A stretch of DNA of 64,000 nucleotides. It comes from a bacterium (lineage in GTDB: Bacteria; Armatimonadota; Chthonomonadetes; Chthonomonadales; Chthonomonadaceae). Made by a program: the position numbers and the translations under genes. The notes under the pieces were generated by a model. The model was not told where the DNA came from and did not search any database. It was given only the letters and a program-made list of their open reading frames with translations. This document shows positions 49,833-63,421 of this stretch, piece by piece. Position 1 is the first letter of the stretch, and every line of letters starts with the position of its first letter. The stretch spans positions 1-64,000 of the forward strand of contig JAJYCW010000002.1 in assembly GCA_021777995.1 (NCBI GenBank), given 5' to 3'.

Positions 49833-52151
49833 ATGAAACCAGCAAAGCAGATTAGATACAGGTGCATGTGGGCAGCTGTTGCAGGCGCTGCAGTAACTCT
49901 TGCCGCAAATGCCGCCAGCGCACAGGACAGCAATAATTCATGGTGGAATAGTAATTCAATTGGCTCGAACTACCGCGTAAATCAGAGCGGAAACCAGCTT
50001 CCGCCCTCGGATCCGTCCCAGCCTCTGGACGTGTCTACCCAGAACGCAGTGAGCAGCGGCCCAGTAAGGATGGCACGATTCGTTCGGGCCGAGGGCAACG
50101 TTACGTGGAGGCCATTAGCTGGCGGTAGCTGGTCTCAGGCTACCGTTAACCTGCCACTCCGCCAGGGAGCACAGATTTGGGTGACCGACGGCGGCCGTGC
50201 TGATCTTCAGTTTGACGATGGAACAGAGCTTCGTATAGGAAATGGTGGTCTGGTCACGCTAAAGACGATGTACAGTGACTCGCAGGGTGAGTATACGCGA
50301 ATTACGCTTCGAAATGGTCTTGCAACGCTTCGGTTGTTGCACAGCAACTCCATTTATCAAATCGATACCCCTATTGTATCGGTGACAGCTAACGGTCAAA
50401 CACGGGTTCGTATTGGCGTAGGGGATGGTGTGGAAGTAGCTGTGCAGGCAGGTAGTGCTCAAGTGCAGGGTGAACAGGGCACCATCACGATGCAAAATGG
50501 CCAATACATGGGCCTAAATGACGGATCCTCTCCATTTGATCCTCAGGCCATGCCGCAAGAGGACAGCTGGGATCGGTGGAATGACAGGCTTGATGCCAAT
50601 ATGTATGGTTCACCAACCTATTCCGGCAGTGACCACCTTCCGGCAAACATCGCGGTAGCGGCTGGGAATCTGAGCCAATATGGCAACTGGGTCGATACTC
50701 CAAGCTATGGCTGGGTGTGGCAGCCAGAAGTTTCGCAACCAGATTGGCGTCCCTACTCCGATGGACGGTGGGTTTATGTAAATCCATTTGGCTGGACATG
50801 GGTAGACAACGCGCCCTGGGGTTGGGCACCGTACCACTACGGTACGTGGACCGATCTATCGTCTGGCTGGGCATGGGTGCCGGGACCTTCCTATCAACCC
50901 TGGTGTCCTGCCGTAGTCAACTTCAGCACATATGACGGCGATGTGGCATGGGCTGCCTTGGCACCACGCGAAGTTCACTACACACGCACTAGCTTTGGGT
51001 TTGGCATTGGGTCTAACTGGTTTTCAATTAGCCAGGTTGCTGCCTATTTGCCCGTTAATCGTGATAGCTGCGATGCCGTTCCCTTCTCCAACAACTACGT
51101 GAATAATGTCACTTACGTCAATAACACCACTTACAACAACTTTGGCGGCGGGGGCAACAGTTTCACAGGTCATCCAACCGCATTCGACAGGTTCAATGCG
51201 TCCGCAGAAGGCTATGCTGCAGCAACGGGTCGAAACGTCCGCTTTATTCCTGTAAATGCCCTTCGGTCTGGTGGAATGGTTGTTAGGTCGGCACAGTTCG
51301 GGTCAGCACAAAGCTATCAGCCGCTCTCACGCACCCGTGCAAACGTGTTTGCAACTGGCGTGAGTACAGGAACTTCGTCACGTGGCGTCATCCACGTGTT
51401 TGGGCCTGCAACCGTGGCACCCAGACCTGCAATACCGATGAACGGAGGTCACTTCAATGCACCTGCTCGAGTACAACCTCCAGTATTCCGTGGGATTCCC
51501 CCGCGAGGGTCTGCATTCGCTGGCGGGCACCTACCTAATCGGTTTATAAACAACGCAAGAAATGCCCCATTCAGTTCGAATGTACCCGCCTATGTCATGC
51601 GCGCCCGTCAACAACTGAACATACCTGTGCATGGTCAGAGCAGCCGTTCTTCGTTCAATCGGCTCTTCAGCCCCGCGCCACGGCAAGCCGGGCCAACCAT
51701 TCAGCACAGTCGATCACCCTTCTGGCAGCCAATTTTTGGCAATCGATCTCGTGGCGCAAATGCTCATAATATTACACCACGGTACAATCCACCAGTGAGG
51801 TCAGCACCTAGGTACAACCCACCGGCACCTAGGTACAACCCACCGGCACCTAGGTACAACCCACCGGCACCTAGGTACAACCCACCGGCACCTAGGTACA
51901 ACCCACCTGCACCAAGGTACAACCCACCTGCACCAAGGTACAACCCACCTGCACCAAGGTACAACCCACCCGCACCAAGGTACAACCCGCCGCCGAGGTA
52001 CAACCCACCTGCACCAAGGTACAACCCACCGCCGAGGTACAACCCGCCGCCTAGGTACAACCCACCTGCACCAAGGTACAACCCGCCGGTAAGGTCGGCA
52101 CCGCAGAAAGGCGGTGGCGGTAACAGCCGCAGCAGAGGCCACCGTAGGTAA
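49833..52151 (+). CDS. Secreted FecR/DUF6600-type protein with Pro-rich RYNPP repeat tail
   Basis: A 772-residue exported protein. ATG 49833 follows GGAG by eight bases, and a signal peptide (to about ANAASA) is present. A FecR-like beta-domain lies at about residues 70-235 (LRQGAQIWVTDGGRADLQFD; YQIDTPIVSVTANGQTRVRI). DUF6600 follows at about 275-410, with Trp/Tyr-rich repeats (WRPYSDGRWVYVNPFGWTWV, PWGWAPYHYGTWT). After a Ser/Asn/Arg-rich region the C-terminus has 15 RYNPP units (about 650-755) and a basic end (GGGGNSRSRGHRR). It is probably an envelope or extracellular protein that binds polymers. Its role is unknown. It is a monocistronic gene between two signalling operons. Confidence 0.85.
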   Translation: MKPAKQIRYRCMWAAVAGAAVTLAANAASAQDSNNSWWNSNSIGSNYRVNQSGNQLPPSDPSQPLDVSTQNAVSSGPVRMARFVRAEGNVTWRPLAGGSWSQATVNLPLRQGAQIWVTDGGRADLQFDDGTELRIGNGGLVTLKTMYSDSQGEYTRITLRNGLATLRLLHSNSIYQIDTPIVSVTANGQTRVRIGVGDGVEVAVQAGSAQVQGEQGTITMQNGQYMGLNDGSSPFDPQAMPQEDSWDRWNDRLDANMYGSPTYSGSDHLPANIAVAAGNLSQYGNWVDTPSYGWVWQPEVSQPDWRPYSDGRWVYVNPFGWTWVDNAPWGWAPYHYGTWTDLSSGWAWVPGPSYQPWCPAVVNFSTYDGDVAWAALAPREVHYTRTSFGFGIGSNWFSISQVAAYLPVNRDSCDAVPFSNNYVNNVTYVNNTTYNNFGGGGNSFTGHPTAFDRFNASAEGYAAATGRNVRFIPVNALRSGGMVVRSAQFGSAQSYQPLSRTRANVFATGVSTGTSSRGVIHVFGPATVAPRPAIPMNGGHFNAPARVQPPVFRGIPPRGSAFAGGHLPNRFINNARNAPFSSNVPAYVMRARQQLNIPVHGQSSRSSFNRLFSPAPRQAGPTIQHSRSPFWQPIFGNRSRGANAHNITPRYNPPVRSAPRYNPPAPRYNPPAPRYNPPAPRYNPPAPRYNPPAPRYNPPAPRYNPPAPRYNPPAPRYNPPPRYNPPAPRYNPPPRYNPPPRYNPPAPRYNPPVRSAPQKGGGGNSRSRGHRR
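51780..52098 (+). repeat. Tandem 21-bp coding repeat, 15 copies of RYNPP
   Basis: The motif TACAACCC occurs 15 times, mostly 21 bp apart (unit PAPRYNP), with three 18-bp steps where one Ala is missing (PPRYNPP). Copies 2-6 share CCGGCACCTAG and copies 7-10 share CCTGCACCAAG, so two subtypes were amplified separately. VRSAP flanks the array at both ends. It lies inside the FecR/DUF6600 gene. Confidence 0.95.
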
Positions 52152-52249
52152 TTTGCGCATTTCTGAAATCTACTCCGAACGAGTACTCGCTCTTTTCCAG
52201 CAAGCGGGTGCTCGTTCTGTTTGCACCATAACAAAATCTTATTAACGTC

Positions 52250-52281
52250 TTAACAGAACCATAACAGCCCTTTGTTATACT
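52250..52281 (+). promoter_or_regulatory. Pho-box-like promoter of a small membrane protein gene
   Basis: TTAACA at 52250-52255, five bases, ATAACA at 52261-52266, nine bases, TATACT at 52276-52281. The 11-bp period and the nine-base gap to the -10 are exactly as in the pstS promoter at 62296-62327. A further TTAACG lies at 52242-52247. It overlaps the -35 position, as activator sites of PhoB/PhoP type do. Confidence 0.55.
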
Positions 52282-52343
52282 CTGTGATAATCTTGCAGTT
52301 ATCTGCAGATCCGCCAAAACAACTGGTATTTGGGAGACTTAGT

Positions 52344-52526
52344 TTGAAGACAAACATTAAGCCAGCATGGCTCATAGCGGCGAGCGTTGCAGTCGGGCTG
52401 TTCGTTGTAATTGTAGCGTGGCATTCTCTAGCCTCACTAACGAGTTATAGCAACACGGCTCATAGTAAGGCTGCGGGTAGAAAAGCAGATTTCAAGGCAC
52501 AGTGGAATCGCAAATCGGGGAAATAA
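52344..52526 (+). CDS. Small single-span membrane protein of unknown function
   Basis: A 60-residue protein starting at TTG 52344, with GGGAG seven bases upstream (52332-52336). It has a short N-terminus (KTNIKPAW) and one hydrophobic segment (LIAASVAVGLFVVIVAWHSL, about residues 9-28). A basic C-terminal tail follows (SKAAGRKADFKAQWNRKSGK), which may lie in the cytoplasm. No family is known to me. The promoter upstream resembles that of pstS, so it may be made during phosphate limitation. The gene is followed by a hairpin (52558-52596). Confidence 0.62.
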   Translation: MKTNIKPAWLIAASVAVGLFVVIVAWHSLASLTSYSNTAHSKAAGRKADFKAQWNRKSGK

Positions 52527-53204: not shown

Positions 53205-54926
53205 ATGCTGCAAGACCTGTTTACTGAGCTGACGTTCAACTCGCTGCCTGTTCAGGTTGCGGTGTTGGATCCATCAGGTTGTCTGCTTAAGGTGAACCGG
53301 TTGTGGGAGACAACAGCACTATTCAGCAACGAATTTACTCCCTTCACACTTGGCGTCTCTTGCGTGGACCACTTCTGGCGGAAATCGCTCGAAGGGAATG
53401 ATCATGCCAGACGTGCTTACGAGGGTTTATCGGACATGTTTGCGGGCCGAACGCAGCAATTTTGCATGGAATATCGCGTTGGAGAAGGCGCTGGTACAGA
53501 ATGGTTCCTGATGGAAGCGGCTAAGCTGTATGAGCCTGGCCGTGGCGCCGTGTTAACTTGCACCAATATCTCATCTCAAAAACGGTATGAGATGCAAGTA
53601 GAGCTCACAAAACAGGAGGCACTTAGGGCCAGAGACGAACTAAATGAAGCGAATATACAGACCGGCATCGCAATTGAAATTGCTAATGAGTTGAATGCGG
53701 CACTACACCTGGAGAACCGAAACAAAAACCTCATTTTAAGCACCCTTCCATCAGTGCTTATAATAGTCGACAACGACCTGATCGTAACAGAGTGGACTGG
53801 AGGAAGCGAGCAGGTTTTTGGAGTAACTGCGGCAGAAGCTGTTGGCCGAAAGCTGACGGACGTTGCAATCACCGTTAATTGGGCAGAGCTTGCCTCGGCG
53901 GTCCGTCGATGCATCGCCAATGCCCAAACCGTTCGACTGGATGACTGCCGATTTCGCCGGGTAAACGGTTCAGACGGTATTTTGGGGATTACCTGCGCAC
54001 CAATGCCTCTCGCAACCTCAGATAAATGGGGCGCTCTTCTCGTTGGCGCGGACATAACCCAGCGCCGTGCACTTGAAGGACAACTGGCACACGCCCAAAA
54101 ACTCGAAGGTATTGGACAGCTAGCTGCGGGAATCGCGCACGAAATCAACACACCATCGCAGTACATCGGCGACAACGTGCGATTCGTTCAACAGGGCCTT
54201 AAAGAGATATGTGGCATTGTGGGGATGATACGCGAGTTCACAGCTCAGGGTCGCGAAAATGGCCAGCCGAGCGTTACGCTCGAAGATCTCTTCGAGGCGA
54301 TGCGCACAGCGGATGTAGATTACCTGCTTGAAGAGCTGCCACTCGCCGTGGAGCAGACGCTTGAAGGTATAGCTCACGTTAATCGCATCGTGCGTGCTAT
54401 GAAGGATTTCTCGCATCCAGGTTCGGACCAGAAAGTGTGCTCCGATATCAACAGGCTGCTAGATAGCACCATTACGGTTACCCGGAATGAGTGGAAATAT
54501 GTTGCGGAAATGCAAGCCTGCTTCGACCAGAATCTTCCCGACGTTTTGTGTTATCCCGGTGACCTTAACCAGGTCTTTCTCAACGTTATTGTGAATGCCG
54601 CGCACGCTATTGCAGATGCAAACAAGACTTCAATGCGCGAAAAGGGAACCATTCGGGTTAGCACTGAGCAGACCGACGTGTCGGTACTCATAAAGATTCA
54701 AGATACAGGGACCGGAATTCCGATCGGCGCTCGTTCACATGTATTCGACCCATTTTTCACCACGAAAGAGGTGGGACGCGGTACCGGTCAGGGATTGTCT
54801 ATCGCTCATAACATCGTAAAGGTGCGCCACGGAGGCGATATCTGGTTTGAAACCGAACTCGGTTTAGGTACTACCTTCATCATAGAACTACCCCTTGGTG
54901 ACACCTTGAAGGAGAGTAGCCATTGA
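53205..54926 (+). CDS. Soluble PAS-domain histidine kinase
   Basis: A 573-residue kinase without membrane segments. PAS-like domains lie at about residues 10-130 (NSLPVQVAVLDPSGCLLKVN) and 180-290 (STLPSVLIIVDNDLIVTEWT), joined by a coiled-coil stretch. The HisKA part has His312 in AAGIAHEINTPSQYIGDN, and HATPase has NVIVNAAHAIAD, QDTGTGIP and GRGTGQGLSIAHN. TPSQYIGDN after the His is typical of kinases linked to RpfG/HDOD-type regulators. It starts at ATG 53205 after AAGGAG (53190-53195). The next response regulator gene overlaps its stop by four bases. Confidence 0.92.
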   Translation: MLQDLFTELTFNSLPVQVAVLDPSGCLLKVNRLWETTALFSNEFTPFTLGVSCVDHFWRKSLEGNDHARRAYEGLSDMFAGRTQQFCMEYRVGEGAGTEWFLMEAAKLYEPGRGAVLTCTNISSQKRYEMQVELTKQEALRARDELNEANIQTGIAIEIANELNAALHLENRNKNLILSTLPSVLIIVDNDLIVTEWTGGSEQVFGVTAAEAVGRKLTDVAITVNWAELASAVRRCIANAQTVRLDDCRFRRVNGSDGILGITCAPMPLATSDKWGALLVGADITQRRALEGQLAHAQKLEGIGQLAAGIAHEINTPSQYIGDNVRFVQQGLKEICGIVGMIREFTAQGRENGQPSVTLEDLFEAMRTADVDYLLEELPLAVEQTLEGIAHVNRIVRAMKDFSHPGSDQKVCSDINRLLDSTITVTRNEWKYVAEMQACFDQNLPDVLCYPGDLNQVFLNVIVNAAHAIADANKTSMREKGTIRVSTEQTDVSVLIKIQDTGTGIPIGARSHVFDPFFTTKEVGRGTGQGLSIAHNIVKVRHGGDIWFETELGLGTTFIIELPLGDTLKESSH

Positions 54927-62292: not shown

Positions 62293-62327
62293 TTCTTAAC
62301 ATTTTCTTAATATGAACGGGATATACT
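62293..62327 (+). promoter_or_regulatory. pstS promoter with Pho-box-like direct repeat
   Basis: TTCTTAA occurs twice exactly 11 bp apart (62293-62299 and 62304-62310). Read as hexamers it is TTAACA (62296-62301), five bases, TTAATA (62307-62312), the PhoP/PhoB-like spacing. The -10 TATACT is at 62322-62327, nine bases later, so the repeat covers the -35 place. Confidence 0.65.
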
Positions 62328-62380
62328 GTATATCTGTGAGGAAGTGCCAATGACGAATTGGTCAACTAATGGAGGTAAGG

Positions 62381-63421
62381 ATGAGATTTTCTCGCGCAGC
62401 CATCGGCGCCTTTGCAGCCGCAGTCGCTGTATCGAGCGGTGTTGGTGCACATGCGATTTCACTCAGCGGAGCTGGAAGTACCTTCGCACAGCCTTTTTAT
62501 AAGTTATGGTTTGCCAAGTACAAACAACAAACGGGTATCTCTGTCGACTACCAGGCTATTGGTTCCGGTGCAGGTATCAATGCGCTGAAAAACAAAACCG
62601 TCGATTTTGGTGCATCCGATGCTCCACTAAGCGACAATGACGAAAAGACAATGCCATTTCCCGTAGTTCATATTCCTACCGCCGGTGGCGCCGTGGTTAT
62701 GAGTTACAACCTTAAGGGCATTGGGTGTGGGCTGCGTTTTACTCCGCACATCATTGCGGAGATTTACAGCGGCAAAATTACCAAGTGGAACGATCCTCAG
62801 ATTGAAGCGGTTAACTTCTTTAAGAATCTGCCTGATATTCCAATTCAGCCCGTTCACCGAAGCGATGGATCTGGAACCACCTACATCTTTACAAGTTTCC
62901 TTTCCAAGGCAGATTCCGGGTGGGCGAGCACTGTTGGCGCCGGCAAATCCGTTAACTGGCCAGTAGGCCAGGGTGGCCCGGGTAACCCCGGTGTTGTCAC
63001 GAAAGTTCAGCAGACGGAAGGTGGATTTGGTTATGTTGAACTTGCGTATGCCATTCAGCATCACCTTCCCTACGGCTCCGTGGAAAATAGTGCAGGGAAC
63101 TTCGTCTCACCCAGCATTGCTACCACCCTAAATGCTTTGCAGCAGTATACTGCGCAACTCGACAAGGATGTACGTACTCCCACTGTAGACGCGCCGGGTG
63201 TTAACAGCTACCCAATCAGCGGTCTTACATACATTCTGCTTTACCAGCATGGCGGCTCACACGTTGGCCCCACTACACAGTTGTGGAGCTGGTGCTTACA
63301 ACCGGCCCAGCAGCAAATGGTCACTACTCTTAACTATGTACCGTTGCCACCGGGTCTGGTTAAAGAGGACCTCGCCGCAATCAAGACCATTTCGGGCGCC
63401 CAGTTGGCCAGCGGAGGCTAG
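62381..63421 (+). CDS. pstS: Phosphate ABC transporter substrate-binding protein
   Basis: A 346-residue periplasmic phosphate-binding protein. ATG 62381 follows GGAGG by five bases, and the signal peptide (MRFSRAAIGAFAAAVAVSSG) begins there. ISLSGAGSTFAQPFYKLWF contains the first phosphate-binding block, IGSGAGINALKNKTVDFGAS and DAPL the second, and HRSDGSGTTYIFTSFLSKAD the third with its conserved Arg-Ser-Asp-Gly-Ser-Gly-Thr. It captures phosphate for the PstCAB importer. PstC follows six bases later. The promoter has a Pho-box-like repeat, so induction by phosphate starvation is likely. Confidence 0.97.
   Translation: MRFSRAAIGAFAAAVAVSSGVGAHAISLSGAGSTFAQPFYKLWFAKYKQQTGISVDYQAIGSGAGINALKNKTVDFGASDAPLSDNDEKTMPFPVVHIPTAGGAVVMSYNLKGIGCGLRFTPHIIAEIYSGKITKWNDPQIEAVNFFKNLPDIPIQPVHRSDGSGTTYIFTSFLSKADSGWASTVGAGKSVNWPVGQGGPGNPGVVTKVQQTEGGFGYVELAYAIQHHLPYGSVENSAGNFVSPSIATTLNALQQYTAQLDKDVRTPTVDAPGVNSYPISGLTYILLYQHGGSHVGPTTQLWSWCLQPAQQQMVTTLNYVPLPPGLVKEDLAAIKTISGAQLASGG

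Follow-up and report, generated by a model that had tools for sequence, protein, structure and literature searches.

A putative Pho box shared by pstS and the gene of a small predicted membrane protein in Armatimonadota

What signal controls a small gene whose product resembles no known family? The question arises at position 52344 of the window, the whole stretch of 64,000 nucleotides analysed here, which belongs to contig C139 of a 4.09-Mb genome assembled in 200 contigs (G000). A gene of 60 codons lies there, and the original prediction had linked it to phosphate starvation through a motif found also before pstS. Taken as a whole, the comparative evidence is best explained if the gene is a separately transcribed member of a Pho regulon under a PhoB-like regulator, and we consider this reading likely.

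The small gene and its product

52344 to 52526, + strand: gene of a 60-residue predicted single-span membrane protein (TTG start, GGGAG ribosome-binding site, orthologues)
52333 to 52337, + strand: ribosome-binding site GGGAG (from sequence and alignment; GGAG kept in both orthologues)

The small open reading frame is real, coding and under purifying selection. Its orthologues in two congeneric genomes (G001 and G002) show 80% and 68-70% identity, and the substitutions fall mostly at third positions (dN 0.14-0.22, dS saturated), a pattern that led us to reject a noncoding stretch. Among 101 relatives, orthologues occur only in these two other genomes of the genus and, weak matches apart, 291 genomes of the phylum contained none beyond it. 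The protein thus appears, as found so far, to be confined to one genus of Armatimonadota.

Across the three sequences 37 of 60 residues are invariant, and the basic C-terminal tail (SYSNT-HSKAA-RK-DFKAQWN-KS) exceeds the membrane span in conservation. The original prediction had failed to place the protein in a family, and the profile libraries agree: nothing matched in Pfam at E<=0.001, and the best NCBIfam match had an E-value of 0.16 (11.7 bits, for a cut-off of 55). Structure prediction placed two helices, at about residues 8-36 and 39-57, with a mean pLDDT of 76 and a pTM of 0.35, and was therefore too poor for a fold search. The product would be a bitopic inner-membrane protein, the first helix crossing the membrane and the second forming a basic helical tail. 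It would most likely act through the binding of a partner by this tail, perhaps a component of the envelope or of phosphate uptake.

Whatever its promoter, the protein may have no phosphate-specific job. A distant-homologue search brought up small single-span proteins of other Armatimonadota whose N-termini are similar, the matches being weak (E 5e-5 to 0.05). In those inspected, the 300 bp before the gene contained no Pho box, as would suit a general small protein of the envelope belonging to a loose MK-x-x-[IV]-x-P single-span set. This view of the function, compatible with a Pho promoter, is a substantial possibility, if somewhat short of an even chance. Against it, the matches lie mainly in the membrane span and may therefore be compositional, and the tail, which is conserved, is specific to the genus. 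Across the phylum, starts resembling MK-x-x-[IV]-x-P are found repeatedly in small single-span proteins (L085, L086, L087, L089, L090, L095 and L107), which may form a loose family.

The motif before the small gene and pstS

The membership of the gene in a Pho regulon is a separate matter, which rests on its promoter and on that of pstS.

52227 to 52266, + strand: putative Pho box of the small gene, four units at 11-bp spacing (CATAACA-AAAT-CTTATTA-ACGT-CTTAACA-GAAC-CATAACA)
52276 to 52281, + strand: -10 element TATACT of the small gene, 9 bp past the final unit
62295 to 62312, + strand: putative Pho box of pstS, two units (CTTAACA-TTTT-CTTAATA)
62322 to 62327, + strand: -10 element TATACT of pstS (from sequence)
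62369 to 63421, + strand: pstS (TIGR00975, 5e-97)

That a common motif stands before both genes, as originally predicted, was borne out: TCTTAACAGAACCATAACAGCCCTTTGTTATACT lies at 52248-52281 before the gene at 52344, and TCTTAACATTTTCTTAATATGAACGGGATATACT at 62294-62327 before pstS at 62369. The common pattern, TCTTAACA-N5-WTAAYA-N9-TATACT, has exact matches in the window only at these two places, and 100 dinucleotide shuffles of the window gave none. The array before the small gene had been located correctly, with two units too few. Four are found in register, starting at 52227 (CATAACA), 52238 (CTTATTA), 52249 (CTTAACA) and 52260 (CATAACA), the final one being CATAACA and not CTTAAYA. They form tandem 11-bp direct repeats of 7 conserved and 4 variable bases, as in promoters of the PhoB/PhoP type. 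At the usual distance from TATACT there is no -35 hexamer and no -35/-10 pair of the sigma-70 type; an ordinary sigma-70 promoter was rejected at this site for want of a -35 match.

Our genome-wide statements come from pattern searches and from Markov simulations based on the composition of the window. Over the 200 contigs, TTAACA-N5-WTAAYA-N9-TATAMT occurs exactly only at the small gene and pstS, with two further sites at two mismatches and no match to the reversed pattern, so that the motif is not common at random positions. Against the Pho reading, no box before phoBR or phoU of this genome exceeded the threshold used.

We also scored the window with a matrix trained on 14 promoters, all from other genera, which belong to pstS and to further genes with a box; as these promoters had been found by the same motif, the matrix does not stand wholly apart from the way the motif was defined. 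The sites of pstS (37.9) and of the small gene (25.9) rank first and second among 127,932 positions, the next separate place in the window scoring 14.9. For each Markov model, 160 Mb of random sequence was scored: at least 25.9 is expected about 0.05 times per genome with the order-1 model, and no such score was seen with order-3.

The box across the family and its candidate regulator

In most genomes of the family, two to five CTTAAYA units with an 11-bp period lie upstream of pstS, and TATACT or TATAAT (TATAMT) follows 9-11 bp after the final unit. The exact two-unit box CTTAAYA-N4-CTTAAYA was found at 26 sites in 16 relatives, and its reversed control at none in the same 16. Behind these exact boxes stand pstS (five times), DUF1559 pseudopilin-like genes (nine times), a PF04185 phosphoesterase (G010:C43), a beta-propeller protein (G006:C26) resembling the phosphoesterase C22:35232 of G000, and an alginate-export-type porin. 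With one mismatch allowed, the PF04185 phosphoesterases of both congeneric genomes also bear the box. In G000 itself, an exact box precedes C22:35232, which encodes an 878-aa beta-propeller/PF04185 phosphoesterase, and a weaker one (score 19.9) precedes C79:21237, orthologue of the relatives' PF04185 phosphoesterase and a check outside the training set of the matrix. The assignment to the PhoB/PhoP type made in the original prediction is well in line with these data. Indeed, a box kept before pstS family-wide and before phosphoesterase genes, the empty reversed controls and the presence of a PhoB/PhoR-like pair support the view that the shared motif is a Pho box.

Several observations on these loci deserve mention. 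Beyond the window end, pstS is followed by a fused pstC-pstA gene and then by pstB. The fusion protein has 692 aa (G000:C139:63428-65506, or L046:3429-5507), with TIGR02138 and TIGR00974 on its two halves, and phoU and phoBR lie on contigs other than that of the pst genes. DUF1559 genes are strongly over-represented behind Pho boxes, with 9 of about 25 promoters in the relatives (binomial P below 1e-7, taking as background a rough estimate of about 1-3% of genes for PF07596); the sites are G000:C1:8483 and G000:C87:83781, together with L124, L126, L127, L128, L130, L131, L133, L136 and L137 in the relatives. A CTTAACA-TAAA-TTTAACA box also precedes a flagellin-like gene in G000:C22:90 and G002:C10:24242, where a good -10 at the usual distance is absent.

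Which regulator, then, would bind the repeats? Of the five full-length OmpR-family regulators of the genome, the most PhoB-like is encoded at C66:8023-8703. It scored 270.4 bits with TIGR02154 (PhoB, cut-off 296) and 272.8 bits with YycF/WalR, below both cut-offs. Such scores, the four other regulators of the family and the many box-bearing genes that encode DUF1559 pseudopilin-like envelope proteins and not textbook phosphate functions would fit a scenario without phosphate sensing, in which another regulator of the OmpR family occupies the repeats, or in which the PhoB-like protein does so in the role of an envelope regulator of the WalR/RpaB type. We find this scenario unlikely, as the box recurs before pstS and phosphoesterase genes in several genera, the kinase that follows the PhoB-like regulator (C66:6955-8010) is closest to PnpS/PhoR although below the curated equivalog cut-off, and the best models for the remaining four regulators are of the heavy-metal (CzcR) or RpaB/MtrA types. 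The PhoB-like protein is therefore our preferred candidate; it has orthologues in 10 of 10 genomes, and the PnpS/PhoR-like kinase adjoins it in this genome and in relatives.

In nine of the ten genomes of the family (L159-L167), this kinase lacks a clear membrane span; in G007 (L168) an N-terminal span can be read from the sequence, and the phoB gene of that genome is preceded by Pho-type repeats that include a CATAACA unit. One could imagine that the 60-residue protein, restricted to the genus and induced through the Pho system, serves as a membrane adaptor and tunes the phosphate signal itself, for example by tethering the PhoR-like kinase, span-less in this genus, to the membrane or to the Pst transporter. 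This idea seems very improbable, and anchoring of PhoR was dropped as the main explanation because a PhoR-like kinase without a span is also found in most of the family's other genera, yet no recognised copy of the small protein.

A probable separate transcription unit under proposed phosphate control

52177 to 52217, + strand: terminator-like hairpin 3' of the DUF6600/FecR gene (RNA fold -24.6 kcal/mol, z -4.5)

The preferred reading requires that the small gene be transcribed from its own promoter. A hairpin lies between it and the DUF6600/FecR gene upstream, and the two genes are therefore separated; read-through from the DUF6600 gene was rejected on account of this strong structure. Its position is common to three species while the stem sequence differs (z -7.4 in G002 and -5.7 in G001), and the copy in the window lacks a long T-run. 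At its C-terminus (window 51780-52110), the DUF6600/FecR protein consists of [A]PRYNPP repeats, nearly perfect and in a long series. Downstream, the next gene is a histidine kinase at 53205, and since the gap of 678 bp varies in length in relatives, the small gene is probably monocistronic. G002 shows synteny over the whole block from the DUF6600 gene, past the small gene and the HK-HDOD-HD genes, as far as pstS; in G001, two contigs carry parts of this block.

The orthologous promoters bear on the claim that the gene takes part in the phosphate-starvation response. A PhoB/PhoP-type box speaks for the claim, which must nevertheless be tempered, as the box is degenerate in both orthologues (two mismatches each) and the -10 is shifted in G001. 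The orthologous sites score 19.7 (G002) and 17.2 (G001), and the chance of reaching 17.2 in a region of 215 bp is about 2e-4. Moreover, the core units at 52249-52266 lie within the most conserved 17-column intergenic stretch, with 11 of 17 columns invariant in three species, although their conservation over the surrounding intergenic DNA is modest (permutation P 0.016). From these scores and this stretch we conclude that the box has been retained, but is weaker than that of pstS. A chance or decaying resemblance with no regulatory role, to which the degeneracy and the modest conservation might point and which would make the match with pstS coincidental, is very improbable for a site of such a rare score: a gene follows it directly, its distance to the -10 is the proper one, its four units are in register and the orthologous sites score far above background.

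Altogether, the Pho-regulon membership of the small gene is well supported by comparative sequence evidence. We propose that, when phosphate is scarce, the phosphorylated PhoB-like regulator (G000:C66:8023-8703) would bind the repeats at 52227-52266 head to tail, replace the -35 element and recruit RNA polymerase to the TATACT at 52276. The same protein would drive pstS(CA)B and the secreted phosphoesterases, and the small gene would be induced by phosphate starvation. With the same type of phosphate-starvation switch before its gene as before that of the phosphate transporter, the 60-residue protein is very probably produced once phosphate is exhausted.

This arrangement is close to known systems. 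In Bacillus subtilis, PhoP boxes are TT[AT]ACA-N5 repeats, with a hexamer and an 11-bp period nearly identical to those of the unit described here; the differences are that a C usually precedes the hexamer here, and that only 9-11 bp separate the array from the -10. Pho boxes have been described as tandem 11-bp repeats about 10 bp before the -10 (PMC4415409, PMC1906773). The head-to-tail 11-bp repeats of E. coli PhoB boxes likewise precede a sigma-70 -10 by about 10 bp, but their unit is CTGTCAT (PMC1906773, PMC4415409). In cyanobacteria, the boxes for SphR (PhoB) stand before pst and phosphatase/nuclease genes, and consist of repeats of the CTTAACCT type, 8 bp long and joined by 3-bp linkers (PMC1906773); the 11-bp period and the pst and phosphatase-type targets are alike, whereas the unit here is CTTAA[CT]A, in two to five copies and in a different phylum. 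As for the product, small DUF1127 proteins bind PhoR and, similarly, are very small and tied to phosphate control, and the abstract of that study does not describe their genes as Pho-box genes (PMC12501420). In contrast to what is presented there of DUF1127, the 60-residue protein has no Pfam match and is a predicted membrane protein.

Our search of the literature found no described Pho regulon for Armatimonadota. The present analysis provides a sequence-based definition of a Pho box for this phylum, and links a small predicted membrane protein, which could not otherwise be assigned, to a probable physiological response. In addition, DUF1559 pseudopilin-like genes appear to belong to the regulon, which hints at a remodelling of secretion or of the cell surface under phosphate stress.
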